IMG/VR virus record: IMGVR_UViG_3300025872_000046
Location: 19,468-83,467 of that record
From: a virus
DNA length: 64,000 nt
Strand: one strand, 5' to 3'
Shown: piece after piece, positions 6,191-63,212 of the stretch
How positions within the stretch are numbered: the stretch's first letter is position 1
How the letters are laid out: the number at the start of each line of letters is the position of its first letter
Made by a program: the position numbers and the translations under genes
The notes under the pieces: model-generated
Databases searched by the model: none
What the model saw: only the letters and a program-made list of their open reading frames with translations
Told to the model about the DNA's origin: nothing

Positions 6191-6471
6191 GAAGATACAC
6201 GAGCTCAACTGTTTACAACCTCGGCAAGGCTCGCGGCGCTGCCAGATCACCTGGCGCGGTGTACGACGCAGTCCGCCTCGGCATCGTCCCAGCGTCCGTG
6301 AGAGTCACGCAGGAAGGCGAGAGAATTGACACTATCGCTGGAGAGGAATATGGCGACTCGACTCTCTGGTGGATCATCGCAGCCGCATCAGGCATAGGCT
6401 GGGGTCTGCAAATGCCGCCTGGGACTCGGCTGCTTGTACCAAATTTAGAGCAAGTGAGTAGGGTGATCTGA
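6187..6471 (+). CDS. LysM-like baseplate protein (T4 gp53-like)
   Basis: It encodes 94 residues, with ATG overlapping the preceding stop (ATGA). The middle has the LysM-type pattern seen in gp53 and XkdP-type baseplate proteins: ...GERIDTIAGEEYGDSTLWWI... followed by PPGTRLLVP. In T4, gp53 is a baseplate wedge component. Here it sits between a large tail protein and the hub protein, as expected. The LysM fold is inferred from this pattern; a role in peptidoglycan binding is possible but unproven. Confidence 0.72.
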   Translation: MRRYTSSTVYNLGKARGAARSPGAVYDAVRLGIVPASVRVTQEGERIDTIAGEEYGDSTLWWIIAAASGIGWGLQMPPGTRLLVPNLEQVSRVI

Positions 6472-9400
6472 TGGCTTTCACTACAAGACGTGATGTCTAT
6501 CTCGACGCAGTTGCAAAGTTGAAACCCTATCTGAACTCAACAAGCAAAGAAGATTTTGTAGCCGCGATTCTCACGGGACAAGATCTCATTGCGGCTAACA
6601 CTTCAACGGACATCGAATATAATCAAAGGACTGAATTTTTACAACGACTGCTCGGTCCGATAGTCGACGTTATCAACGGAGGCTATTATACTACCGAAAT
6701 ATTGGAACGTCTTGAAGAGGCGCTCAAGGGAACTGCGGACGGAGGCAAAAATCAAAGCGCTCAAAGAATCGCTGAGTTTATTCGTTTTACTCTCTCTACG
6801 AATGTAAACTCGCTTTACTCATCATCTGCTGAGGGCACGGTGGCCTTGGGGGCGCAACGTTTCCCTGAGTGCTTTAAAGCTAAAATCATAAACAGTGCTG
6901 GGGATTTGGCGCTTGCTCCTGAAATTGTTCTGGAATCCATAGCTACCCCGCAGGCTGGGTTTTGGGTCCCTATCGGTAACCCTTCACCCTCGAAGACGTC
7001 GACGCATGTCTCTGTGATCGAGGTTCTCAACTCGAATCTTGGGACTTCTGTGAGGGACACAACTGGTTTGAGCATCTTTGCCAGCCTCATTCCTACGCAT
7101 GTGATCTCAAGGGCTGTGCCCTATGTCTCTTTGAGAATTCACGGTGCGCCGACAACAGCTCAAGGTGAAGACGGTCGGATCTCCGCAAAGAGCATGAATC
7201 TCCTTCGCTACTTGAAGGGTGAGGTGCCGTGGAACTCTTCCAATCCCTCTGATGGAATCTTGGGATTTGAAGGTGAGACGGTTGCGGATGAAACAGGCAT
7301 CTATCCAACTCCGGGTGGGATGGAGCTCTTCACAGCCCCCCAAACGATGGTGTCCGATGAGTTGTGGACCGCGGGGTTCTCAAAATCCAAGCCCATCGAT
7401 AGATTTAGACCCCTGATGACGCTCACTAGTCTGTCTATTGACGTGGCCAGCGCCGCGGCAGGATTCATGTCTTTCAAGACTGCGAAGGCTGAGATCGTTC
7501 TTCATGACAGGGGTCGTCTTGCAGAGGTGGCACCATTTGTCAAGGCGGGTCTCTACGGCAGCACAGAGATTGAGATAGAGTACGGGTGGTCGATAGATGC
7601 TTCTGCGGGAAGGAAGGCGAGCCCCGCCGACGCCACCGCGGCGGCCGTGAGGGGCGAAGAGATGAGTGTAGGAGATGCAATTTACGGTGCAAGGCTCAAA
7701 GACGATACTCTTGCACAATTTGTTGACTCACTAAGAGTGACTGAGAAGTACATCGTTGTGAACTCGACCTTCAATTTTGATGATACCGGACAGGTCAACA
7801 TTTCGCTCGATCTTTCGATGAAGGGGGCTGCCGATGCCAGAAGTCTCGATATTACTGCTTCCACTCCAAGCACTGCGAAGGAGAGACTCAGGGCGATAAT
7901 AGAAGATCTTAATAGCACGCTTACGGGAACTTCAGAACAGCTGAAGTCGGTCATTCCTGAGAATCTTCTCGGAGCTGTCGCGAGCGAAGACGCCGTCTAC
8001 GCCCTAGATGAAAAACAGCTAAAGGAAGTTGCAGCTGACGTTAAAAAGTTCCAGAAGTCACGTTCGTCAGAAGCAAGCCTCTCTAGCATTGCTGCTAAAA
8101 TGAACGCTGCGCTTGCTGCGAACGAGGAAGCAAAGACCGCCGCTGTCAGAGCGGTGGATCAGATGTTCTCTAACATGGTCGTAGGTGCATCCGCGACCTT
8201 TCCAAGCTGTGAAGAAGAACTCGCTAGGAACTTCGGCGGAGGCACCGGCGCCGGCGGCGTGGTGCTCAACGACGCCGGTAATCTATGGCATTACAAAACC
8301 GCCAAGGGTGCGCTAGAATACTCGGGACTAAAGCCTCTTTCATCCGATGCGTACGAGGGCGGCGCAGTTTCTCTTGGAGCCGCCCTAGTCACTCTGGCAG
8401 GCAACCCACTACAAGCCTCTGGCAAATTTGACGAGATTCAATTCATCTTCAACAAGTTCAACGATAGAGCTGGTTTCATGAGAAGTCTGTCAACAGCTGC
8501 ATTCCCACTCGACTACAACAAGCTAAAGGACAGCGTTACAAAGCTCTATAAAGAAAATGTTAGAGTCTCAATTTCTCAGTTAATATCGGTAATCGCCGAC
8601 CAACACGTCGGAGACATCGCGCACCCAGCATACGGGTTCAGTACAGCGTATGACAAAGACGGCAAGCTCATAGAGCAGAAGCAGGGTGAGCCCAGTATAA
8701 TAGATCAGGCTCTAAAGAATGCCGGAATCCTGGACTCGCAATTTCAAAAACCACAGCTTTCTGTGCAGTTCGAGTGTGTGCCGCACTGGCAAAGAAAGGA
8801 AGAGACAATACTTCGAGTTTACGTCCGCGATGAGTCCTGCAGCGCATACCAAGAATATGCTGAAGCCATTACGGCTGGTAGATCTGATGTGACGAGATTC
8901 GTAGACATGGGAAGTATCTCTCCCAAGCATCCTCTGTTCACAAGAGGTTTCGTGACTAACGATTTGAGTAGTGCCGTGATTCTCAAAACACGCACAGATG
9001 TCTTCACAAAAATGCAATCCGAAGGAGTTCTCACCGCGGTGGCGACGACATCTGCAGCTCCTGATACGAGTGAGTGGAAAATAGATCTGAACGCGTTATT
9101 TAGGGCAGGTGATCCTCGCAAGCTGAAGTCCTTCATGCAGCGGGGACTGCCAGTCATACGCTACGGAAGCTCTGCAGGACTAGTCACTAACATCTCAGTG
9201 AGCAGCATCTCCGATCCGAGAATGAACACCGTGTCCATGTTGAGGAATAACGAAACTTCGGGTCAGGCTGAGAGTTCTGCTCGTGAAAGGGGTCTTCCTC
9301 TGCTCGTGAACGGAACCGAGGTCAACGTAGACATGGTGGGCTGTCCTATATTGAACTTTGGGCAGTCTTTCTACATTGACTTCGGCACGAACACTTCGAT

Positions 9401-12739: not shown

Positions 12740-12764
12740 ACAACTCTACTACACTTTCTACAAT
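12736..12764 (+). promoter_or_regulatory. Candidate promoter of the SSB gene
   Basis: CTGAAC, 17-base spacer, TACAAT. The downstream bases CTCAATGT are identical to those after the TACAAT box at 59865, giving a shared 14-base string. The leader to the SSB start is about 80 bases. Confidence 0.55.
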
Positions 12765-12852: not shown

Positions 12853-13680
12853 ATGGCAATCGATTTTGACGCAATCCGCAAGAAGCTCGGCCAGCTCTCC
12901 GGCCAGAACAAGAAGTCCGCAGTGACGTGGCGCCCCGAGGAGGGCAAGGACTACCAGGTCCGCATCATCGCCTTCCCGGACAACGACGGCCAGCCCTTCA
13001 AGGACCGCTGGTACTACTACGGCATCGGTGGTGACAAGGCTGGCGCTATCCTTGCTCCGTACCAGTTCGGTAAGAAGGATCCGATCCAAGACCTCATCAC
13101 GAAGCTCCGTGAGGACAACTCCGATGCTTCCCGCGAGCTCGCCAAGAAGCTCTACCCGAAGCTCCGCACCACTGCGGCGGTGGTTGTCCGCGGCGAGGAG
13201 GACAAGGGTGTCCGCCTCTGGTCCTTCGGCAAGATGATTTACCAGGACCTCCTGAAGCTCATGCTCGATGAGGATTACGGTGACATCACGGATCCCGAGG
13301 CCGGCCGCGATGTGAAGGTCTCCGTCAGCCGCGCTCCGGGCAAGGCGTTCGCGGATACGAAGGTGACTCCCCGCGCCACGCCGACTCCCCTCTCGAAGGA
13401 CTCGGCGCAGATGAAGCAGTGGCTCTCGGCGATCCCCCGCATGGAGGACTACGATGAGCTCCTCGGTGTGGAGGAGATCGAGAAGCGAGTGAATGACTGG
13501 CTCACGGGCGGTTCCTCCGAGACTCCTGCCGTGAAGGTCGAGACGAAGACCTCCTCGGCGGAAACCATCGATGATGACATCGCGGCGATGCGCTCCGGTG
13601 GCGGGGGCGGTGGGTCGAAGCCGAAGCCCAAGTCGAAGGCATTCGATGACCTCGATGACGCATTCGCAGAGCTCGAGTAG
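12853..13680 (+). CDS. Single-stranded DNA-binding protein (T4 gp32-like)
   Basis: It encodes 275 residues. The N-terminus FDAIRKKLGQLSGQNKK resembles the basic cooperativity segment of gp32-type proteins. A central OB-like core follows, with WRPEEGKDYQVRIIAFP and an aromatic cluster DRWYYYGIGG. The C-terminus has a flexible Gly/Lys/Pro linker (SGGGGGGSKPKPKSK) and a typical acidic tail (AFDDLDDAFAELE), which in SSBs recruits replication partners. It would coat single-stranded DNA in replication and recombination and work with RecA, helicase and 5' nuclease encoded just downstream. It has its own promoter, a structured leader and a strong hairpin after the stop, consistent with high expression. 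Codon use is noticeably more biased (C/G-ending) than in neighbours, as also seen in recA and the fibre gene at 28111. Confidence 0.85.
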   Translation: MAIDFDAIRKKLGQLSGQNKKSAVTWRPEEGKDYQVRIIAFPDNDGQPFKDRWYYYGIGGDKAGAILAPYQFGKKDPIQDLITKLREDNSDASRELAKKLYPKLRTTAAVVVRGEEDKGVRLWSFGKMIYQDLLKLMLDEDYGDITDPEAGRDVKVSVSRAPGKAFADTKVTPRATPTPLSKDSAQMKQWLSAIPRMEDYDELLGVEEIEKRVNDWLTGGSSETPAVKVETKTSSAETIDDDIAAMRSGGGGGGSKPKPKSKAFDDLDDAFAELE

Positions 13681-13702
13681 CTCAAACCGGCTCTAACGAG
13701 CC

Positions 13703-13736
13703 TTCACCCCGGGTTTCGGCCCGGGGTGAACACTTT
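13703..13736 (+). terminator. Hairpin terminator after SSB gene
   Basis: TTCACCCCGGG (13703-13713) pairs perfectly with CCCGGGGTGAA (13720-13730) around a six-base loop, followed by CACTTT. The U-tract is weak, so termination may be partial. The right arm overlaps the -35 box of the recA promoter. Confidence 0.7.
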
Positions 13737-13753
13737 AAGGCGCCGATTAGAAT
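13726..13753 (+). promoter_or_regulatory. Candidate promoter of the RecA gene
   Basis: GTGAAC, 16-base spacer, TAGAAT, followed after 8 bases by AGGAGG and the ATG at 13772. The -35 box is embedded in the 3' arm of the SSB terminator hairpin. Confidence 0.5.
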
Positions 13754-13771
13754 CAGTAAGCAGGAGGACAA

Positions 13772-14983
13772 ATGTCAAGAAGGAAGCTGCCCCTCACTGA
13801 GGGCACCACGAATCCCACCGATGACTTCACTTCGGATCTCATCGACTCTCTCAACCGGGACCTCGGCCACCGGGTCGCGTACAATCTCGCATCGGACCAG
13901 TCGCCCACCCACGTGAAGCGGTGGATCTCTACGGGTTCGAAGCAGCTCGATTACATTGTGGCGAATCGACGCGATGGTGGACTCCCCGAGGGTCGAATCG
14001 TCGAGATCTTTGGCCCGCCCTCGATCGGTAAGAGCCACATCGCGACTCACATTGCCCGCTCCACCCAGAAGATGGGCGGGATCGTGGTCTACATCGACAC
14101 CGAGAATGCCACGAACCCAGAGAACCTGCAGGCGCTCGGTGTCGACATCTCGAAGCGTTTCGTGTACGTCGATACTCACTGCACCGAAGAGGTCTTCGAC
14201 ATTGCCGAGAAGACGGTCCTGAAGGCGAAGGCGCTCAACAAGGACGTCCCCATCACCATCATCTGGGACTCGGTCGCTGCCTCCTCCCCGAAGGCTGAGC
14301 TCGAGGGTGCCTACGACAAGGACACCATCGGTCTCCAGGCCCGCGTGATCTCGAAGGCGATGCGCAAGATCACTGGCGTCATCGGTGACCAGTCCGTCCT
14401 CTTCGTCTGTCTCAATCAGATCCGCACGAAGATCGGTGTGATGTACGGAGACCCGACTGCGGTGCCGGGTGGCAACGCGATCCCGTTCCACTCCTCTGTC
14501 CGCATCAAGCTCGGTGCTGGACAGCAGATCAAGGGACCGAACGACTCTGTCATCGGCATCAACGTCTCCGCGAAGACGATCAAGAACAAGGTCGGGCCGC
14601 CCTTCCGCGCAGCGAGCTTCCGAATCATCTTCGGCAAGGGGATCGAGGAGCACGAGGAGATCTTTGACATCCTGCGTCAGCACGGTCCCGATATGGTCGA
14701 CAACCACCAGGTGACAGTCGAGGGCACGGGTGCCTGGAAGACTCTCAGCGTCGTCAATGAGAAGAACGAGAATGTCATCACGAAGAAGTTCCACAAGCCC
14801 GATTTCCTCGAGCTCATGAACGATCCGAAGTACAAGCCGTGGATCGACGGACTCCTCGAGCGTGCCATGACTCGAACTGCGCTGAAGGCTGAGGATGTCG
14901 ACATCGATCCTGAGTCCTACGAGGAAGTTCGCTCTCTCGCTGATCAACTCACCGAGTCTGGATACGATATCTCACCGGAATGA
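13772..14983 (+). CDS. recA: RecA/UvsX-type recombinase
   Basis: It encodes 403 residues with a strong AGGAGG RBS. Walker A is EIFGPPSIGKS (near 78-88), followed by VVYIDTENATNPE (the RecA YIDTE segment) and Walker B TIIWDSVAASSPKAELEG. LNQIRTKIGVMYGDPTAVPGG matches the conserved RecA LxQxR-K-GxxFGxPxxxxGG loop 2 region. It polymerises on single-stranded DNA and promotes strand exchange, for repair and recombination-dependent replication. The motif wording is closer to cellular RecA than to T4 UvsX. The next gene starts within its stop codon (ATGA), which couples it to the 5' nuclease. Confidence 0.93.
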   Translation: MSRRKLPLTEGTTNPTDDFTSDLIDSLNRDLGHRVAYNLASDQSPTHVKRWISTGSKQLDYIVANRRDGGLPEGRIVEIFGPPSIGKSHIATHIARSTQKMGGIVVYIDTENATNPENLQALGVDISKRFVYVDTHCTEEVFDIAEKTVLKAKALNKDVPITIIWDSVAASSPKAELEGAYDKDTIGLQARVISKAMRKITGVIGDQSVLFVCLNQIRTKIGVMYGDPTAVPGGNAIPFHSSVRIKLGAGQQIKGPNDSVIGINVSAKTIKNKVGPPFRAASFRIIFGKGIEEHEEIFDILRQHGPDMVDNHQVTVEGTGAWKTLSVVNEKNENVITKKFHKPDFLELMNDPKYKPWIDGLLERAMTRTALKAEDVDIDPESYEEVRSLADQLTESGYDISPE

Positions 14984-15954
14984 AAATGCAGGACGAACGC
15001 CCAGTCCTACTCATCGACGCCTACAACCTGTTCATTCGCAATTTCTGCGCTAACCCGCTGATGGCGGATGGACAGCACGTGGGCGGAGTTGTGGGGTTCC
15101 TACAGTCACTGAATTCTCTCATAGCTGCTCACAGGCCGAAGGAGTGCGTCGTCGTCTGGGAGGGTGGAGGTTCGACCCGGAGGCGGGACATCTATCCTGA
15201 CTACAAGGCAAAGCGTCGTCCCGTAAAGCTCAACAGGTTCCACGAGGGTGACATTCCAGACACTCTCGAGAACAGGAACTGGCAGGTGAAACTGCTCATC
15301 CACGTCATGAGGAACCTCCCGGTCAGGCAGGTCTACGTCTCTGACTGCGAGGCGGATGACGTCATCGGCTACCTCGCAAAATACTCATACTCACGATCAC
15401 GGGTGCTGATCGTCTCCTCAGATCATGATTACTTACAGCTGGTGGACGATCGGATCACGATATGGTCTCCTACACTGAGATCGATTGTGACGAGAGAGTC
15501 TGTCAAGGAGAAGACCGGGATATGGCCGCACAACCTTCTCGTCGCCCGCTGTTTCTGTGGCGACACATCAGACGCACTGCCGGGAGTGAAAGGTCTCGGT
15601 TTGAGGACGATGGTCAAGCGTTTCCCAGAGCTCGCTGGGGACGAAGAGGTAAAGCTCGAACAGATAATCGAGAAGGCGAGCTCCATGCCCGACAAGTCTC
15701 CCAAGGTTTACGCACAGGTGAAAAACAGCGCAGACCTGGGTAGAATGAACTGGAAATTGATGAAGTTGGATGTCTCGAACCTCAGCTGGAACCAAGTCTC
15801 GAAAGTGAACGGTGCAGTCGAAAACTCCCTTCCCGAAGGGAACAAGATTGAGCTCATACGTTCCTTAATCAAGGCTGGGATCAAGACATTCGACGTCGAT
15901 CGACTCTATCTCAACGCAACAGTAAACCTCAAGGCGGCAAAGCAGAATGTCTGA
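14980..15954 (+). CDS. 5'-3' exonuclease / flap endonuclease (RNase H-like, Pol I 5'-nuclease family)
   Basis: It has 324 residues. It opens with LLIDAYNLFIRNF (first active-site Asp), followed by RRRDIYPDYKAKRRP, the family YKxxR segment. SDCEADDVIGYLA supplies the acidic cluster and VSSDHDYLQL the SxDxDxxQL motif. The helix-hairpin-helix region is CGDTSDALPGVKGLGLRT. The enzyme would remove RNA primers and 5' flaps from Okazaki fragments. It lies in the recA-helicase operon, with ATGA overlap upstream and an 8-base overlap with the helicase gene. A second, divergent member is encoded at 54875-55693. Confidence 0.9.
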   Translation: MKMQDERPVLLIDAYNLFIRNFCANPLMADGQHVGGVVGFLQSLNSLIAAHRPKECVVVWEGGGSTRRRDIYPDYKAKRRPVKLNRFHEGDIPDTLENRNWQVKLLIHVMRNLPVRQVYVSDCEADDVIGYLAKYSYSRSRVLIVSSDHDYLQLVDDRITIWSPTLRSIVTRESVKEKTGIWPHNLLVARCFCGDTSDALPGVKGLGLRTMVKRFPELAGDEEVKLEQIIEKASSMPDKSPKVYAQVKNSADLGRMNWKLMKLDVSNLSWNQVSKVNGAVENSLPEGNKIELIRSLIKAGIKTFDVDRLYLNATVNLKAAKQNV

Positions 15955-34848: not shown

Positions 34849-35045
34849 AGCCGGGGGACGTTGTCCGCTTCATAGCAGGCAGCCCAGAGGTTCTCTACGT
34901 GGTCCTGAAGGGTCCGTACGAACACTCTGAACTGTCTCAGTTTCGCATCACTGAGGTGAGCGTCGTCTACGACGTCTACTCAGCGGGCGGAGGCGTGTTC
35001 ACTGCCGTGAAGCGTGAGCTGTTGGAAATTGTCAAGCGCTGCTGA
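34845..35045 (+). CDS. Small SH3-like hypothetical protein
   Basis: It encodes 66 residues. MKPGDVVRFIAGSPEVLYVV has the look of a small SH3-like beta-barrel (PGDVVR). Function unknown. Its stop region holds the -35 box for dnaE. Confidence 0.58.
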   Translation: MKPGDVVRFIAGSPEVLYVVLKGPYEHSELSQFRITEVSVVYDVYSAGGGVFTAVKRELLEIVKRC

Positions 35046-35070
35046 ACACATCACACCTCAATTCTACAGT
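35042..35070 (+). promoter_or_regulatory. Candidate promoter of the DnaE-type polymerase gene
   Basis: CTGAAC, 17-base spacer, TACAGT; AAGGAG and ATG 35089 follow. The -35 box matches that of the SSB gene. Confidence 0.55.
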
Positions 35071-35088
35071 ATCTCTCAAGGAGAAAGA

Positions 35089-38000
35089 ATGGTGAATCCG
35101 CCCTCTCGATTCGTGGGTCTACACTCTCACGACGGTGCGAGTACTTTTGACGGTCTAAGCTTGCCGCAAGAGCACATCGACTTCTGTCGTGAGAACGGAC
35201 TAGACGCTTGGTCGATGACGAACCACGGTCACATGAACTCCTTCGGCCACGCCTGGCTTCATACTGATAAGCTGCGGAAGGCTGGCGGCAACTTCAAGCT
35301 CATTCCGGGCTGCGAGATGTACCTCCACCCAGACCTTGATGAGTGGAGACGAGATCTCGACCGCTCGAAGGGAATCGTGAATGAGGACGTCATCACTCCC
35401 CTCTCTGCTGAGAAGGACGAGAATGATGAGACGACTGCGGTGACTGTCGAGGAGGTCGCCTCTCTCACGATGGAGAATGAGGAGGAGACTAAGTCAACGA
35501 AGTTCTACAACCCTGTGACACGTCGACACCACCTTGTTGTCATTCCGAAGACCTCTGCAGCGCTGGAGAGGTTGTTCGGTCTCGTGTCGAAGTCGTACTC
35601 CGATGGTTTCTACCGTTTCCCACGCATCGATTACAAGATGCTGAAGGAAGCTGCGAAGGGCGACTTCTTCGTCTCGACTGCCTGCATCGGCGGGCCTCTC
35701 GCCTGGGAAGTCTTCCAGGAGATGCAGGGTGTAGAATTTGACCAGCTCAGCTGGCGTCTTCTCGATGACAAGAGTCTAATGAACAGGACCATGTCCCGAA
35801 TCGGTTCAACCTGGGACCGGATCGTCGATGCCGTCGGTCGCGAGAATGCTCACCTCGAGCTCCAGTTCAACAAGCTTCCGGCCCAGCACTTGGCGAATCG
35901 AGCCCTCATCGAATTTGCCCGACGTGAGGGGATCACCGACAAGCTCGTGGTCACCTGTGACTCTCACTACGCACGTCCTGAGCACTGGCGTGAACGTGAG
36001 ATCTACAAGAAGCTCGGCCGGCTCAACTTCGAGGCGTTCAATCCTGACTCTCTTCCAAAGTCGAAGGACGAGCTCAAGTGCGAACTCTACCCGAAGAATG
36101 CGAAGCAGGTCTGGGAGACCTACATGGAGACCCGCGGCGAGGCGGATTTCTATGATGACGTGATGGTGAAGGACGCCGTGGAGCGGACCTGGGACATCGC
36201 TCACAATTCGATTGGAGACGTCCAGCCCGATAAGTCTGTCAAGCTTCCGACCTACATCATCCCCGAGGGGAAGACGGCGATCGAGGCTCTCACGGAATCC
36301 GTGAAGGAGGGGCTGAAGAAGAAAGGGCTCCACACGAACAAGGAGTATGTCCAACGCGCAGTTTACGAGCTGAAGGTCATCAAGGACAAGGACTTCGCCT
36401 CGTACTTCCTCACGATGAAGGAGATCATCGGCCTCGCAAAGACAAAGATGTTCGTCGGTCCCGGTCGAGGTTCGGCTGCCGGTTCGGTTGTCTGCTACGT
36501 TCTCGGCATCACTGACGTGGATCCGATCAAGTACGATCTCCTCTTCGAGCGGTTCCTCTCTCCTGACCGTGAGGGCTTGCCTGACATCGATACCGACATC
36601 GAGAACCGAGACCAGCTCCTCGATCTGCTCAGGACCAACTTCGGCACTGAGAACATCATTCCGATCTCGAACTACAACACCTTCAAGCTCAAGTCTCTCA
36701 TTCGAGACATCTCGAGGTTCTACGGTCTTCCCCTCGATGAGGTGAACGAGGCGTTGAAGACGGTCGACGTGGATGTCGTCAATGCGACGAAGAAGGTCGG
36801 TGACGATAAGAACCTCTTCGTCCTCACCTACGAAGACTCTTATGAGCACTCGAAGCCGTTCAAGGACTTCATCGATCGGTATCCTCACATTGGCGAGAGC
36901 GTCAAGGTCCTCTTCAGGCAGAACAAGTCGCTCGGTCGTCATGCGGGTGGCGTAATCGTTTCCGAGAGGATCTCTGAGCGGATGCCCCTCATCGCCGCCA
37001 GAGGCGAGCAGCAGACCCCTTGGGTCGAGGGCATGAACTACAAGCACCTCGAAATGCTTGGGTGGGTGAAGTTCGACCTCCTCGGTCTTGAAACTCTGCG
37101 AATCATTCGACGTTCGATCGAGCTCATCCTCCGTCGTCACAAGGGAATTGAGAACCCGACGTTCGATCAGGTTCGAGCCTGGTTCGATGAGAACATGGCG
37201 AACGAGGTGATCGACTTCAACGACCAGAAGGTGTATGAGAACGTCTACCACCAGGCGACGAAGCGCACTCCAGGAGTCTTCCAGCTCACTTCCGGTGGAG
37301 CCCAACGACTCTTCCAGAAGGCGAAGCCGAGGTCTCTCGTTGACATCGCTACACTAACTTCGATCTATCGTCCCGGTCCCCTCGCAGCACACGTTGACAA
37401 GCTCTACCTCGAGGCGAAGGCGAATCCCTACGCGATCGACTACAAGCACCCTCTCATCAAGCAGGTACTCGAACCGACATTCGGCTGCATCATCTTCCAG
37501 GAACAGCTGATGGCCCTCTGTAACGTGGTGGCCGGGTTCCCGAAGTCAGAGTGCGACAAGGTCCGAAAGAACATCCTGAAGCGTCAGGGCGGCAATCCTG
37601 AAGAGTCGATGAAGAAGGCGAAGGCGATGAAGGATTCCTTCGTCCAGGGCGCAGTGAAGAACGGAGTGAAGGAGGACATCGCCTCGAAGCTCTGGGATGA
37701 TATTCTCTTCTTCGCAGGTTACGGGTTCAACGCATCTCACGCAATCTCCTACGCGATGGACTCCTACTACTGCGCCTGGCTGCTCACCTACTACGAGGCT
37801 GAGTGGCTCTGCGCATACATGGAGTCCATGATCGGCAGCCCAGAGGCGAGGGCAAAGGCGATCGCTGACATCAAGTCCTTCGGGTATGAGATCGGCAAGG
37901 TCGACATCAACGAATCTGGAATGGACTGGGAGATCTCAAAGACGAGGAAGTCATTCATCCCCTCATTCTCCACTCTGAAGTCTGTCGGTCGAGCGGCGAT

Positions 38001-38658
38001 TGAGGAGATCCTTGAGTTCCGACCCTACACTGACGTGAAGAGCCTCCTCTATGATGATCGAGGAATCTGGAAGAACTCGAAGTTCAACCGACGGGCCCTC
38101 GAGGCGCTGATCAAGATGGGAGCCTTCGAGTCTCTGCCCTTCGTCGGCCCCGGTTGCTTCTTCAGCTCCTACAAGCACATGTACCACTGCATCATTGAGA
38201 ACCAGCACCTCATCAGGAAGGCGACGAAGAAGGACCCGCAGATGGGTTGGAAGAAGCTGCAGGAAATTGCGGTGGAGACGTGGGGCATGGAAGAATGGAC
38301 AAGGCGAGAGCTTGCCCTCTTCCAGAAGGAGATCGTTGGCTCTGTCGATGCGGTGAGCCTCATCCCTAATGATGTGAGAGAGCGCCTCGAGAAGAACGAC
38401 GTGAGGTCCACTGATCACTGGACAGCGCTCGACCTCTACTGGTTCGTGGTGAAGGCAACGACAATGAAGAAGACAAAGAAGGGCAAGCCCTATCTCCTCC
38501 TCGATGTCGTCGGTGAGTCTGGCATCTCGAAGCGGATGTACATGTGGGACTGGGACGGTCGGGCAGAGTTCGAACCTTACACTGCGTGCCTCGGTGAGGT
38601 TGACAGCTCTGACTTTGGGCTTAGTGTTCGATTGCGCAAGATGAAAATCTTGGGGTGA
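35089..38658 (+). CDS. dnaE: DNA polymerase III alpha-type replicase (DnaE-like)
   Basis: It has 1189 residues; ATG 35089 follows AAGGAG. The N-terminal PHP domain begins LHSHDGASTFDG, and the TDHG motif of active PHP sites reads TNHG, so it is probably not catalytic. The polymerase core has GPGRGSAAGSVVCYVLGI and LPDIDTDIENR (residues ~497-507) with two catalytic Asp. Next come GVIVSERI, KFDLLGLETL, GVFQLTSGGAQRLF and CIIFQEQLM, then FNASHAISYAM. A C-terminal OB-like region (KKGKPYLLLDVVGE) follows. It would be the processive replicase. No proofreading epsilon-type exonuclease or clamp gene was recognised in this window. The enzyme coexists with a small family-A polymerase. Confidence 0.95.
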   Translation: MVNPPSRFVGLHSHDGASTFDGLSLPQEHIDFCRENGLDAWSMTNHGHMNSFGHAWLHTDKLRKAGGNFKLIPGCEMYLHPDLDEWRRDLDRSKGIVNEDVITPLSAEKDENDETTAVTVEEVASLTMENEEETKSTKFYNPVTRRHHLVVIPKTSAALERLFGLVSKSYSDGFYRFPRIDYKMLKEAAKGDFFVSTACIGGPLAWEVFQEMQGVEFDQLSWRLLDDKSLMNRTMSRIGSTWDRIVDAVGRENAHLELQFNKLPAQHLANRALIEFARREGITDKLVVTCDSHYARPEHWREREIYKKLGRLNFEAFNPDSLPKSKDELKCELYPKNAKQVWETYMETRGEADFYDDVMVKDAVERTWDIAHNSIGDVQPDKSVKLPTYIIPEGKTAIEALTESVKEGLKKKGLHTNKEYVQRAVYELKVIKDKDFASYFLTMKEIIGLAKTKMFVGPGRGSAAGSVVCYVLGITDVDPIKYDLLFERFLSPDREGLPDIDTDIENRDQLLDLLRTNFGTENIIPISNYNTFKLKSLIRDISRFYGLPLDEVNEALKTVDVDVVNATKKVGDDKNLFVLTYEDSYEHSKPFKDFIDRYPHIGESVKVLFRQNKSLGRHAGGVIVSERISERMPLIAARGEQQTPWVEGMNYKHLEMLGWVKFDLLGLETLRIIRRSIELILRRHKGIENPTFDQVRAWFDENMANEVIDFNDQKVYENVYHQATKRTPGVFQLTSGGAQRLFQKAKPRSLVDIATLTSIYRPGPLAAHVDKLYLEAKANPYAIDYKHPLIKQVLEPTFGCIIFQEQLMALCNVVAGFPKSECDKVRKNILKRQGGNPEESMKKAKAMKDSFVQGAVKNGVKEDIASKLWDDILFFAGYGFNASHAISYAMDSYYCAWLLTYYEAEWLCAYMESMIGSPEARAKAIADIKSFGYEIGKVDINESGMDWEISKTRKSFIPSFSTLKSVGRAAIEEILEFRPYTDVKSLLYDDRGIWKNSKFNRRALEALIKMGAFESLPFVGPGCFFSSYKHMYHCIIENQHLIRKATKKDPQMGWKKLQEIAVETWGMEEWTRRELALFQKEIVGSVDAVSLIPNDVRERLEKNDVRSTDHWTALDLYWFVVKATTMKKTKKGKPYLLLDVVGESGISKRMYMWDWDGRAEFEPYTACLGEVDSSDFGLSVRLRKMKILG

Positions 38659-54874: not shown

Positions 54875-55693
54875 ATGGAAGGAAGGAATCACATGGAAGT
54901 CCAAAGCCCTGTCCTCGTCATTGACTTCAACAACATGGTCCACCGCGCACGCGCCGGCTTTAGCAAGGGCGACCACGCGATCACCTACACTTTCTTCCTC
55001 ATGCTGCGGAAGACGGTGGAGAAGTTCTCACCCTCGCGGGTCTACATCGTCAAGGAGGGCAGGCCCCAGCGCCGCCACGATGCCTTCGGCGAGTACAAGG
55101 CGAACCGCTCCTCGGCAGGCGACGACTTCTGGCGCCAGCACGGTGACATCGTCAGCATCCTCACCACGATGCCGGTCGAAATTGTCCGCCACCCCCAGCG
55201 GGAGTGTGACGACACCATCGCTCACCTCGTCCGCAACGTCCACAAGGATGAGTCCTGCGTCATCGTCTCCACCGACACTGACTTCATCCAGCTCCTCACA
55301 CACGGTGACGAACGAATTCGACTCTGGAACCCCGGCAAGGAAGTCTGGGTCCAGCCCTTCGCATGTGACTACGTGAGGTGGAAGTCCCTCGTCGGCGATG
55401 GCTCGGACAACATTCCCGGCTTCAAGGGGGTCGGGGGCAAGACCGCCGAGAAACTCATCAACGACGAGTCTCGCCTCAATGAGTTTCTCAGTGAGCCCGG
55501 CCGCCGTGAACAGTACGAGCGCAATCTCTTCCTCATCGCCTTCCACGAGATCGAGGACGAGCTCGAGCGCACCCCCACCAACCCAGAGTGGACCACGACC
55601 CGCACTGCTTTCATCGAGCGCGGTTTCTGGTCGATTGCCAACGACAAGTCCTGGCAGAAGTACACCAACACTTTCAACACGATCGCACGATAG
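54875..55693 (+). CDS. Second 5'-3' exonuclease / flap endonuclease
   Basis: It has 272 residues (ATG 54893 gives 266). LVIDFNNMVHRARAG, RRHDAFGEYKANR, RECDDTIAHL and VSTDTDFIQLLT are the acidic and YKxxR motifs. LVGDGSDNIPGFKGVGGKTA is the helix-3-turn-helix DNA-binding loop. It resembles the Pol I 5' nuclease more closely than the protein at 14980 does. Having two may split primer removal from nuclease attack on host DNA or from recombination. Confidence 0.88.
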   Translation: MEGRNHMEVQSPVLVIDFNNMVHRARAGFSKGDHAITYTFFLMLRKTVEKFSPSRVYIVKEGRPQRRHDAFGEYKANRSSAGDDFWRQHGDIVSILTTMPVEIVRHPQRECDDTIAHLVRNVHKDESCVIVSTDTDFIQLLTHGDERIRLWNPGKEVWVQPFACDYVRWKSLVGDGSDNIPGFKGVGGKTAEKLINDESRLNEFLSEPGRREQYERNLFLIAFHEIEDELERTPTNPEWTTTRTAFIERGFWSIANDKSWQKYTNTFNTIAR

Positions 55694-55701
55694 GAGAACA
55701 G

Positions 55702-57721
<2,020 letters not shown>

Positions 57722-57807: not shown

Positions 57808-58578
57808 ATGGCTGATACTCTGACTCACTTCTTCAAGGACGTTGGTAAGCACACTCTTCTCACCCGAGAGGATGAGGCACGGCTGGCGCAGCGGATCGAG
57901 GCAGGTGACAAGCGTGCCAGGGAGATCTTCATCCAGTCAAACCTCCGACTGGCGATCTCCATCGCGAAGCGGTACATGAACAAGGGCTGCTCCTTCGAGG
58001 ACCTCATCCAGGAGTCCAACATCGGCCTCATCAAGGCGGTGGACCGGTTCGACTGGCGCCGAGGCTTCAAGTTCAGTACCTACGCTTCGTGGTGGATTCG
58101 CCAGTCGGTCCGCCGGCATGTGACCGACCAGTCCTGCAACATCCGGATGCCTGCTTCGGCCAACGCGTTCTACTACCGCGCCAAGATGATGATTCAGGAC
58201 TACACTGCAGAGTTCGGCTCTCCCCCGAACGATGATGAGGTGGCTGAGTTCATGGGGGTCTCTCTCAACAAGTACCTCTCTCTCATGAACACCTACCGCG
58301 GCACGCTCTCTCTCGATGCTCCGGCAATGTCTGGCGACGCCGACGGTCCTCGCCTCCACGAGACGATCGCCGATCACAACCAGCACGACCCCATCGAATC
58401 GATGGACCGCGAGAAGGTGGTCGCCATTGTCCGTGAGGCCCTCGCCTCCCTCACTCCCCGCGAGGAGAAGGTCATCCGTCTCCGCTTCGGCATCTCGGAG
58501 GAGCCAGATGACAGTGACAACTATCCAATCTCTCAGGAAGAAATCAACGCTCTCGATTCCCGCCTCGGAGGTGTCTAA
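57808..58578 (+). CDS. Sigma-70-family factor lacking region 4.2
   Basis: It has 256 residues. Region 1.2 (LTREDEARLAQRIEAGDKRA), region 2 (SNLRLAISIAKRYMNKG, FEDLIQESNIGLIKAVDRFD, GFKFSTYASWWIRQSVRR) and region 3 are clear. Region 4.1 is present (LTPREEKVIRLRFGIS, 215-230), but the protein then ends in a polar tail, with no helix-turn-helix for -35 recognition. In region 2.4 Gln99 matches Gln437 of E. coli sigma-70, while the Thr440 position is Arg. It resembles T4 gp55, which lacks region 4 and reads only a -10-like late promoter. The next gene, coupled by TAATG, encodes a separate region-4-like HTH. Confidence 0.88.
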   Translation: MADTLTHFFKDVGKHTLLTREDEARLAQRIEAGDKRAREIFIQSNLRLAISIAKRYMNKGCSFEDLIQESNIGLIKAVDRFDWRRGFKFSTYASWWIRQSVRRHVTDQSCNIRMPASANAFYYRAKMMIQDYTAEFGSPPNDDEVAEFMGVSLNKYLSLMNTYRGTLSLDAPAMSGDADGPRLHETIADHNQHDPIESMDREKVVAIVREALASLTPREEKVIRLRFGISEEPDDSDNYPISQEEINALDSRLGGV

Positions 58579-58877
58579 TGTCCATGCCCAAGGGTCATCG
58601 TTCCCAGCACGGTTACTCCACCGTCTCCTCTGACATCGGTCTCGGTTTCCGAGAGATCGCGGAGAAGATGACGGAGAGCGGCGATGAGATGAATCACGCC
58701 ACTGCCCGCAACGTCCTCCTCCGTGGCCTCATGAAGGTCTCCCGTCCCCTCCTCGCCCTTCACGGCAAGTCTGGCACCGAGCTCGACCATGAGTCCTGGC
58801 GGGTGGCCAGCGACCCCCGCTTCCAGGAGGCGATGATGGACATCATCTCTGATGAGATTCGGAAGCGGAACAAGTGA
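58578..58877 (+). CDS. Small HTH protein resembling sigma region 4.2
   Basis: It encodes 99 residues; ATG overlaps the sigma stop. Residues 22-55 (LGFREIAEKM ... MNHATARNVLLRGLMKVSR) have the order of sigma region 4.2: a first helix with REIAEKM, a turn with a short insertion, and a recognition-type helix followed by a basic helix. The C-terminal third is helical and ends RKRNK. It could bind the RNA polymerase flap and DNA in trans, as sigma-4-like coactivators do (T4 gp33, RsoA of Bacillus), but it could also be an independent transcription regulator. Confidence 0.62.
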   Translation: MSMPKGHRSQHGYSTVSSDIGLGFREIAEKMTESGDEMNHATARNVLLRGLMKVSRPLLALHGKSGTELDHESWRVASDPRFQEAMMDIISDEIRKRNK

Positions 58878-59140
58878 GACCCTTCCTCGTTCCGCCGAAC
58901 CTCGCTGAGGAGACAGAGCTCCTCGAGGCCCTCGAGTGGGATGAGGAAGCCCTCTCCCAGGTCATCGAAAAGTGCAAGGCCTCTCTCTCGGGACTTGACA
59001 CCGAGTCGCAGGCAGCAAAGTCCCTAAAGGACCTCCACGAAGAGCTAGTTACCGAGAGGGGAGAGCATGTCGCTCGTCTCGCGATTACACTCTTTCTGAA
59101 AAGAGCCATACAATACAGCACAGAGGAGATTGAAGCATGA
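58874..59140 (+). CDS. Hypothetical helical protein
   Basis: It encodes 88 residues from GTG overlapping the HTH gene stop. It is acidic and helical (AEETELLEALEWDEEALSQV). It is coupled both ways (GTGA, ATGA). It may act with the transcription proteins by operon position only. Confidence 0.6.
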   Translation: MRPFLVPPNLAEETELLEALEWDEEALSQVIEKCKASLSGLDTESQAAKSLKDLHEELVTERGEHVARLAITLFLKRAIQYSTEEIEA

Positions 59141-59469
59141 CACCATGGGAGAATTTCATCACGAGGCGTAGGATTGACGTGAATGCGTTCATCACCCGCA
59201 ACTCCCTCACGACGAGAGAGACCTTCCTCGCCCACCTCAGAGAGCACGGCGTCCTGCCGCCTCCGGAGGAGACGATCAACGCACTGTTCCCTCCTCCACT
59301 AGAGGTGAAGATTGAAGCCGCCAAAGCACCCGAAAAGAAGGAAGGACTTACCGCCGAGGATACTGCTCCCCCACGGAGCGACACTCGTGCGGGAAAGCGG
59401 AATAGTGGAGCTACCAGTGGGGTCGTTCCTGTTGAAGATCGAGGCGGCGAAGATTCCAGCGCTGGCTGA
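59137..59469 (+). CDS. Hypothetical protein, C-terminal half overlapping next gene
   Basis: It encodes 110 residues. Residues 1-60 look genuine (ITRRRIDVNAFITRN, FLAHLREHGVLPPPEETIN). After KIEAAK the sequence becomes Ser/Gly/Asp-rich and overlaps the next gene by 53 bases. Confidence 0.55.
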   Translation: MTPWENFITRRRIDVNAFITRNSLTTRETFLAHLREHGVLPPPEETINALFPPPLEVKIEAAKAPEKKEGLTAEDTAPPRSDTRAGKRNSGATSGVVPVEDRGGEDSSAG

Positions 59470-61394: not shown

Positions 61395-63212
61395 ATGTGT
61401 GGAATCGTAGGTTACATCGGCAAGAAGCAGGCAACCCCAATCCTCATCGAGGGCCTCCGGCGTCTGGAGTATCGTGGATACGACAGCGCCGGAATCGCCG
61501 TTTTTGATGGCGGACACATCGTGACATCGAAGGCTCTCGGTCAGGTGAAGTTCCTGGCTGAGAACGCGAACCTCGAGGGCAGGGCGGGGGTCGGTCACAC
61601 GAGGTGGGCGACACACGGTGGCGTCACCATCCCGAACACCCACCCTCATACAGACATGAGTGGGAACATTGCGGTTGTCCACAACGGGATCATCGAGAAC
61701 TACGCGGAACTGAGAAACCAGCTCACTGCAGAGGGTGCTGCTTTCCTCTCAGAGACGGACACAGAGGTCATCCCTCACCTCATCAGGAAGCACTACAGGG
61801 GCGACCTCCTCGCCGCCCTCCTCGAGACCCTCCCTCTACTCAGGGGGACTTACGGGATCGCAGTTGTCTCCTCACTCAGTCCGAGGACGATCCTCGTGGC
61901 ACGGAATGGATCGCCCATCGTAATCGGTGTCGGGAAGGGTGAGAACTGGATTGCATCAGACTCATCCGCGTTTGCTCAGCACACGAGAGAAGTCGTCTAC
62001 CTCGAGGACGGTGATGTCGCCTCAGTGACGATGGAGGGCTGGGAGATCGAGAAGCACGGTGGATCCCTCGCGGCAAGGAGGGCGGTGACGATCTCAGAGG
62101 AGTGGGTTGACGCTGAGAAGGGTAACCACCCGCACTTCATGCTGAAGGAGATCTACGAGCAGCCCACGACTCTCCGACGCTGCATGACTGGTCGTCTCCT
62201 CGAGAACACCGCGAAGCTGGGTGGCATCAACCTGACACCGAGAGAGATCGTCAACCTCCAGAACCTCGGCATCGTCTCCTGTGGGACCTCTTACCACGCT
62301 GGCCTGGTCGCAGCACACGCCTTCGAGGAGCTGGCTGGTCTGAGGACGAACGCAGAGATTGCCTCGGAGCTGAGATACCGCAACCCGCCCATCGGGACTG
62401 ACGATCTCTACCTCGGCGTCTCCCAGTCCGGTGAGACTGCGGACACCCTCCACGCCCTCAGGATGGTGAAGTCACGGGGAGCCCATGTCGCAGGTGTCAT
62501 CAACGTGGTGGGATCGACAATCGCGAGGGAGTGTGGGCAGGGAGTCTACATCCACAGCGGGCCTGAGCAGGCGGTCGCATCCACGAAAGCCTTCACCTCA
62601 CAGGTCACCGCACTCCTCCTCCTTGCCCTCTCCTTCGGGACGACACGAGGTCTCTCCTCGGTGGAGGGATGGCGGGTCTCGAAGGCTCTCGGTGAGATTC
62701 CCGAGGCTGTGAATCGCTGGCTGGACGGTGGGCCAGAGATAGTGAGGGAGGTCGCACAGTCTGTCTACGGAGCAAAGCAGGTCTTCTTCATCGGCAGGGG
62801 AGTCTCTGCTCCCGTGGCAATGGAAGGCGCTCTGAAGCTGAAGGAGATCTCCTACATCCCTTCCTTCGCTTATCCTGCCGGAGAGATGAAGCACGGTCCC
62901 ATTGCCCTCATCGACAGTGAGACTCCGCTCATCGCCATCGTTCCCAAGGACCAGTGGCGCGACAAGACGGTCTCCAACATCATCGAGGCGAAGGCGAGGG
63001 GCGCGAAGATCATCTCAATCGCCGACCCCCTTGATGAGGAGGTCGAGGCGTTGAGCGACCACTTCATCCCCGTCCCCGGAGCGGGCCACCACCTCGCTAG
63101 CCCACTTCTCACCGTCATCCCACTCCAGCTTCTCGCCTACGAGGTAGCGAACCTGCTCGGTAGGGACATCGACCGTCCCAGGAACCTCGCGAAGTCCGTC
63201 ACCGTGGAGTGA
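61395..63212 (+). CDS. glmS: Glutamine--fructose-6-phosphate aminotransferase (GlmS)
   Basis: It has 605 residues, the full bacterial length. Cys2 (MCGIVGYIG) is the glutaminase nucleophile after Met removal; TRWATHGG, HNGIIENY and SDTEV-type SETDTEVI follow. The isomerase half has two SIS domains with SCGTSYHAG, SQSGETADT, GPEQAVASTKAFTSQ and EGALKLKEISYI, and ends with the typical PRNLAKSVTVE. It makes glucosamine-6-phosphate from fructose-6-phosphate and glutamine. The ATG lacks an RBS and sits just after a -10 box. It could feed UDP-GlcNAc for glycosylation, with glutamine from the GSII gene. Confidence 0.96.
   Translation: MCGIVGYIGKKQATPILIEGLRRLEYRGYDSAGIAVFDGGHIVTSKALGQVKFLAENANLEGRAGVGHTRWATHGGVTIPNTHPHTDMSGNIAVVHNGIIENYAELRNQLTAEGAAFLSETDTEVIPHLIRKHYRGDLLAALLETLPLLRGTYGIAVVSSLSPRTILVARNGSPIVIGVGKGENWIASDSSAFAQHTREVVYLEDGDVASVTMEGWEIEKHGGSLAARRAVTISEEWVDAEKGNHPHFMLKEIYEQPTTLRRCMTGRLLENTAKLGGINLTPREIVNLQNLGIVSCGTSYHAGLVAAHAFEELAGLRTNAEIASELRYRNPPIGTDDLYLGVSQSGETADTLHALRMVKSRGAHVAGVINVVGSTIARECGQGVYIHSGPEQAVASTKAFTSQVTALLLLALSFGTTRGLSSVEGWRVSKALGEIPEAVNRWLDGGPEIVREVAQSVYGAKQVFFIGRGVSAPVAMEGALKLKEISYIPSFAYPAGEMKHGPIALIDSETPLIAIVPKDQWRDKTVSNIIEAKARGAKIISIADPLDEEVEALSDHFIPVPGAGHHLASPLLTVIPLQLLAYEVANLLGRDIDRPRNLAKSVTVE

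Follow-up and report, generated by a model that had tools for sequence, protein, structure and literature searches.

The window analysed here is a 64,000-nucleotide stretch of viral DNA, bases 19468-83467 of an 83,467-bp IMG/VR record that is itself a fragment. Its forward strand carries a gene for a 256-aa sigma factor, followed at once by a gene for a 99-residue protein that we call the partner (table 1). The original prediction had described the two genes as coupled through TAATG, and this proved correct: the shared A ends the stop codon of the sigma gene and begins the start codon of the partner.

Table 1. Features of the sigma-partner locus and its neighbours, in window coordinates.
Feature	Position	Strand	Basis or remark
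Phage GroEL	55875..57476	+	Conserved neighbour, 52/66 loci
82-aa ORF just upstream of sigma (about 82-83 aa)	57473..57721	+	Conserved neighbour, 41/66 loci
RpoD-like sigma factor, 256 aa	57808..58578	+	ATG 57808, stop TAA 58576-58578; comprises regions 1.2 to 4.1 and an acidic tail, no region 4.2
Sigma region 1.2, residues 3-35	57814..57912	+	Pfam Sigma70_r1_2, E 2.6e-11
Sigma region 2, residues 42-109 (-10 recognition, melting)	57931..58134	+	Pfam Sigma70_r2, E 2.7e-22
Sigma region 3, residues 127-198	58186..58401	+	Pfam Sigma70_r3, E 2e-8
Sigma region 4.1, LTPREEKVIRLRFGI	58438..58494	+	Pfam Sigma70_r4, profile positions 1-26 of 50
Acidic C-terminal sigma tail, 27 residues	58495..58575	+	Tail alignment and shuffle control
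TAATG stop/start overlap	58576..58580	+	GGAGG ribosome-binding site, 58567-58571
Partner, 99 aa, member of the unnamed family A2 (66 sequences)	58578..58877	+	AF2 model, pLDDT 84.8
Partner helix-turn-helix, predicted (helices 24-33 and 40-61)	58647..58760	+	Alignment and AF2 model; G35, H40, R44, N45 invariant
Partner C-terminal two-helix segment (66-98), predicted	58773..58871	+	Q83 invariant (DPRFQ motif)
88-aa ORF after partner	58874..59140	+	By eye like the ~97-aa ORF cluster of 26/66 loci (example L004)
110-aa ORF (W..FI.RR)	59137..59469	+	By eye like the ~112-aa cluster of 47/66 loci and the ORF that follows the L110 fusion

Several other genes of the window can be recognized. Two 5'-3' exonuclease genes (14980-15954 and 54875-55693) both match phrog_107, the second heading the GroEL-sigma cluster, and an SSB and a UvsX-like recombinase are combined with a phrog_405 DNA polymerase (12853-14980 and 35014-38658). 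Beyond the pair, at 61395-63212, lies a phage GlmS-like glutamine:fructose-6-phosphate aminotransferase with SIS and glutamine amidotransferase domains. The hexamer TACAAT occurs 14 times on the forward and twice on the reverse strand (for example at 12759, 41220, 57758 and 59865), sometimes in the gaps before genes, and two of the copies are followed by CTCAATGT; some of the strand excess may come from Tyr-Asn codon pairs.

By its similarities the 256-aa protein is classed in the sigma-70 family, among the primary, RpoD-like sigmas. In such proteins, regions 1.2 to 4.1 provide core binding and opening of the -10 element, while region 4 is commonly regarded as a single domain that links the beta flap to the -35 element. 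Regions 1.2, 2 and 3 gave near-full-length Pfam matches and the best hit among PDB sequences was RpoD (E 2.3e-50), in an alignment that stops at residue 235. Sigma70_r4, in turn, matched over positions 1-26 of 50 only and below the Pfam cut-off, so that this profile found no complete region 4 with a -35-reading helix-turn-helix (HTH) in the protein. The original prediction that the sigma lacks the region 4.2 HTH thus holds, with one correction: the chain does not end immediately after region 4.1 but continues into an acidic tail. Across an alignment of 66 sigma homologues (A3), residues L215, E219, R226, F227 and G228 of region 4.1 are invariant, which suggests that region 4.1 still packs against something.

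Split sigmas throughout stop shortly past the motif LR.RFG[IL], usually with an acidic tail of 11-30 residues after region 4.1. The tails carry a motif, (F/Y)-x-(I/V/L)-(T/S)-x-x-E, that lines up with the pattern F-x-[IVL]-T-x-E with which the canonical recognition helix begins. An HHalign comparison of tails and recognition helix scored 15.7, a value reached by none of 60 column shuffles (maximum 8.65, with at least one shuffle re-using the previous score). The tail may be the decayed half of region 4.2, with a remnant of the recognition helix, or it may be a contact for the partner, or merely a common helix-start pattern.

A sigma that ends before its upstream DNA-reading part is common to a large group of uncultured phages. 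An IMG/VR search with the window's sigma yielded 21 relatives; a partner homologue is the next gene in ten of them (L002-L011) and follows a small intervening ORF in L013. A search with the partner profile gave 93 relatives, of which 80 were kept. With the window, the collection comprises 92 locus records and 68 distinct partner sequences, only exact repeats having been removed and some contigs recurring between searches. The same pair, which the original prediction had suggested looking for in related phages, recurs: a truncated sigma lies upstream of the partner on the same strand in all 92 records. In 54 of the 68 distinct cases the spacing of the genes falls between an overlap of 23 nt and a gap of 31 nt; in the other 14 the gap is 178-488 nt.

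As a control anchored on the sigma instead of the partner, three scans returned 154 loci with 121 distinct sigmas. Counting as full-length those with a single region-4 match reaching the HTH, we found 68 truncated and 52 full-length proteins (L014 by eye), and one cut by a contig end (L212). The partner and the full-length sigma are mutually exclusive: a partner gene lies beside 66 of the 68 truncated sigmas and beside none of the 52 full-length ones (Fisher p ~4e-32, uncorrected for shared phylogeny, so that the loci do not count as independent events). One of the scans was queried with sigmas of partner-bearing loci and favours that clade; the contrast between truncated and full-length sigmas still holds. 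Relatives with a full sigma in one frame next to the partner, which would have spoken against the original prediction, did not appear in these scans. For two truncated sigmas, L154 and L160, no partner could be detected; their records measure 12 and 37 kb. These two sigmas are alike, end in LKYGIK and by eye have a dUTPase-like ORF as the next gene.

Only the fact that the two frames overlap in the window would fit a frameshift, a sequencing error or a decayed gene. The identical split is kept in 66 distinct partner-bearing sigmas and in all three relative frames; frameshift or decay is therefore refuted and has next to no probability left. The original prediction had likewise argued against a simple frameshift.

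Turning to the partner, the AF2 model of the isolated protein is all-helical, with helices at residues 24-33, 40-61, 66-77 and 80-98. The four invariant residues of its HTH (table 1) are so across 66 partners that are 26-72% identical to the window's partner, which suggests a fixed DNA target. The protein has no counterpart in named families: there were no Pfam matches at E<=1 and no NCBIfam matches at E<=0.01 for the window's partner, PHROGs gave a best E of only 0.16, and no match at E<=1 was found among 50,697 named phage records, in which divergent members of the family likewise gave chance-level matches only (E 1-6). Structure searches with the isolated model were similar in outcome. Foldseek returned 13 PDB matches, none at E<=0.001, the top VIA hit (Z 4.9) was an unrelated dimerisation domain, and the best BFVD match, A0A6J7X3V2 (E 0.049, probability 1.00), is an unnamed phage protein. 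The possibility that the partner belongs to an unrelated regulator family, which would have undone the original prediction, thus found no named family to attach to.

The original prediction also held that the partner's HTH follows the layout of region 4.2. It can indeed be laid on region 4.2 with the conserved positions matching, R44 and N45 falling on what we take to be R588 and Q589 of sigma70, but the turn is about five residues longer. Profile comparison did not support the identity itself. HHalign gave P 0.12-0.18, not significant, with region-4 alignments of 10, 16 and 45 sequences, and several controls (50 unrelated neighbour families and a reversed profile) outscored the partner-region 4 comparison, the best at 22.4 against 12.4. 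Sigma70_r4_2 matched four of the 66 partners, at a best E of 0.06. Identity of the partner with region 4.2 is accordingly not supported by sequence, HHalign doing no better than with unrelated families or a reversed profile, and as far as these profiles reach the partner is not detectably homologous to region 4.2.

A structural model gives a different indication. We modelled the pair from L006 as a single chain with the stop codon read as Gln, using an alignment whose 94 further rows are mostly sigma-only or partner-only; the AF2 chain had a pLDDT of 89.3 and a pTM of 0.57. Residues 1-320 align with solved sigma chains to near their C-termini, at an rmsd of 11-12 Å over long alignments (8x6f_E 97-367: Z 20.2, rmsd 12.3, 267 aligned; 6omf_F: 272 aligned). 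The sigma part, with its tail trimmed, is 252 residues long, and partner residues ~25-66 would therefore supply the region-4.2 end. Judging from these alignment ranges and lengths, the partner HTH would occupy the 4.2 slot of the fused model, although AlphaFold may be filling that slot by memory. The proposal that the partner stands in for region 4.2 is partly supported, by the position that the model suggests but not by homology.

One natural fusion was found. In L110 a single 357-aa frame comprises sigma region 2 to region 4.1, a linker of ~25 residues and the partner HTH. The sigma-70 superfamily profile TIGR02937 covers region 4.1 of this protein and extends as far as residue 282, where the HTH begins. 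L110 is one of only three loci from genome collections and comes from contig VFKM01000012.1 of a Flavobacteriales MAG, a binning that is no proof of host. The ORF directly past the fusion (6323-6622) resembles by eye the window's 110-aa ORF. Being nearly always adjacent to the sigma and once fused to it, the partner is the best candidate for packing on region 4.1.

Packing of this kind could also describe an anti-sigma factor or an appropriator of region 4.1, in which case the partner would switch the sigma off or block host promoters and would not be a promoter-reading subunit. The protein is small, co-transcribed with the sigma, all-helical and without homology to region 4.2, as that reading would have it. 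Anti-sigmas normally pair with full sigmas, however, whereas each sigma with a partner has lost region 4.2; this loss and the L110 fusion both point to a positive subunit, and we regard an inhibitory role as quite improbable.

Searching whole records with Pfam Sigma70_r4 revealed a second candidate for the missing part, which the original prediction had missed. Small ORFs (open frames of 66-190 aa) far from the sigma match mainly the 4.2 half of the profile. In 17 aligned members of this family (A5; L261-L266 and L269-L279; for example L264:1360-1632, + strand) we see a four-cysteine motif of variable spacing, absent in L276, and the pattern TLQEIG...TRMRICQIEK. Matches to Sigma70_r4 (E 1e-8 to 3e-10) were above the cut-off in all six members tested; comparison with PDB sigma-A region 4 gave E 1.1e-7 and HHalign against region 4 a probability of 97.7 with E 2e-12. 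By profile similarity these proteins are true region 4.2, here called free 4.2, and they show no significant profile similarity to the partner. Separately, five split-sigma records contain a 335-358 aa ORF with a region-4.2-like HTH (L280-L283, G020:C1:175727).

The free 4.2 keeps what we take to be the R584-, R586- and Q589-like positions of sigma70, while M and C presumably stand at E585 and R588, and should therefore prefer an element other than TTGACA. The existence of a canonical free 4.2 also reduces the need for the partner to read the -35 element. The family has 201 relatives in IMG/VR and no match at E<=0.01 in the 50,697 phage records.

We examined the distribution of the free 4.2 in 80 records, none of which is known to be complete. 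It was found in 17 of the 49 viral split-sigma records and in 15 of the 16 that reach at least 200 kb (the exception being G055). In the 29 full-sigma records it was absent (0 of 4 at >=200 kb), the profile matching only the sigma's own region 4.2. One MAG (G064) has it on a 305,838-bp contig together with the sigma-partner pair of L108. The window's own record, which is a fragment, yielded no free 4.2, but L027, a relative of the window on a 257-kb record (G017), has one (L264).

These observations raise the question of whether the unlinked cysteine protein, and not the partner, is the missing region 4.2 of the split sigma, leaving the partner as a gp33-like third component that holds the beta flap or acts as a recruiter and does not read DNA. 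The free protein carries exactly the lost half-domain, with significant homology, its distribution follows the split sigmas as described, and G090 combines it with a truncated sigma and no partner that we could find alongside (the sigma there is a 191-aa protein with region 2, encoded at L398:1399-1971 in a - strand frame, that stops past region 4.1). Looked at from the other side the association is looser: among the 28 records of at least 58 kb with a free 4.2, five hold the partner and split sigma, one (G090) the other short sigma, and 22 have no RpoD-like sigma at E<=0.001; a full sigma occurs in none of the 28. Moreover, in the seven records where the distance was measured, 117-184 kb of linear sequence separate the free 4.2 from the sigma, compared with 18-46 kb between it and a gp55-like sigma in eleven records, and no free 4.2 was found in the MAG of L110. 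We therefore consider this assignment unlikely.

The gp55-like sigma, likewise missed by the original prediction, emerged from weak region-2 matches that led to a family of ~240-aa proteins (A6; L259, L260, L419, L420, L422, L423, L424; loci L426-L505) with at least 537 relatives. Its only clear PHROG match, for one of seven members, is phrog_234, late sigma transcription factor. Several A6 proteins end in -DIF, possibly a clamp-binding tail; the gp45 clamp family had no match in any of the ten records searched. Among the 80 contigs kept, A6 and the free 4.2 occur together on 11, four of which also hold the split sigma (the overlap being read by hand).

Since most of the 28 records with a free 4.2 have no RpoD-like sigma, and since the free 4.2 shares contigs with A6, it may serve the gp55-like sigma, the split sigma, or both. 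If it served the late, gp55-like sigma exclusively, the split sigma and its partner would work alone and there would be two separate systems. The shared contigs, and the fact that these two genes are the nearer genome neighbours, favour such a division; on the other hand, T4 gp55 works without region 4.2, A6 proteins could have an HTH of their own, and distance says little. We see this as possible, if somewhat doubtful, and it is compatible with most of the explanation we prefer.

Our preferred explanation, to which we give an even chance, is that the pair forms a two-subunit sigma factor in which the partner would be an obligate subunit at the region-4/beta-flap position, in place of region 4.2, with the free 4.2 as an alternative. 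The truncation, the linkage, the mutual exclusion between partner and full sigmas, the single natural fusion, and the presence and distribution of the free 4.2 are all shown; from the sequences and models we infer the docking site, DNA reading, module exchange and timing in infection, as follows. The sigma body (regions 1.2-4.1) would bind host RNA polymerase and read and melt the -10 element. The co-translated partner would dock at region 4.1 and the beta flap, where region 4.2 would otherwise sit, and from there its HTH would touch or read upstream DNA. Region 4 would then have come apart into individual modules: the partner would be the resident module, and either the split or the gp55-like sigma could take up the free 4.2 instead. 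A stronger version, in which two exchangeable -35 modules, the co-translated non-homologous HTH protein and the unlinked true 4.2, can each complete the same sigma body (1.2-4.1), seems to us rather unlikely.

Sigma factors made of two chains are already known. SigO-RsoA of Bacillus subtilis likewise divides sigma function between two small proteins of one operon, but it separates sigma-2 from a whole sigma-4, whereas the phage proteins keep regions 1.2-4.1 together and are split inside region 4; and, unlike in SigO-RsoA, the phage partner has no detectable sigma homology. To our knowledge neither this system nor T4 gp55/gp33 nor SPO1 gp34/gp33 splits inside region 4 while keeping region 4.1. 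In a table of PMC10141391 the domains are attributed to SigO and RsoA the other way round.

The original prediction also drew a parallel with T4 gp55/gp33, which act with the clamp gp45. In that system a sigma without region 4 is accompanied by a small protein that sits on the beta flap where sigma-4 would be, and PMC7892883 describes gp33 as structurally unrelated to sigma-4 and, alone, as not binding DNA. The parallel may hold for the place taken by gp33, but not for sequence, as HHalign aligned the partner and gp33 over seven columns with P 0.16, showing no similarity. Further differences are that gp55 consists of a sigma-2 homology domain and a helix-loop-helix, where the phage split sigma is RpoD-like up to region 4.1, and that the partner, in contrast to a gp33 that alone does not bind DNA, has a predicted HTH. 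The late-sigma genes 33 and 34 of SPO1 resemble the pair in being two overlapping genes, of ~100 and ~200 aa by annotation. Their order is reversed, gp34 matches region 2 and weakly region 4, and gp33 is Pfam Phage_Gene33, to which the partner shows no profile similarity. For group-2 jumbo phages, PMC7824862 describes 'minimal' single-HTH sigmas beside fuller RpoD-like ones and gp33 orthologues, and by that description the free 4.2 may be related in kind to the 'minimal' sigma; the parts of that paper available mention no sigma cut between 4.1 and 4.2 and no partner.

Neither the sigma-partner pair nor the free cysteine 4.2 is described in the open-licence literature searched, and papers elsewhere could contain them. 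The arrangement was originally proposed as new; as far as that literature goes it is so, as a probable two-subunit sigma cut inside region 4 with region 4.1 kept, and the unlinked true 4.2 is unexpected, although the partner is not demonstrably the region 4.2 that the proposal made it. A break between 4.1 and 4.2, a non-homologous neighbour and a region 4.2 in trans together offer a natural test of whether -35 recognition is detachable and exchangeable. Profiles built from the families can also be used to look for three little-characterised transcription proteins in a large group of uncultured phages that collections of isolates have missed. If the exchange of modules is real, a swap would direct one and the same sigma to a second class of promoters in the course of infection.
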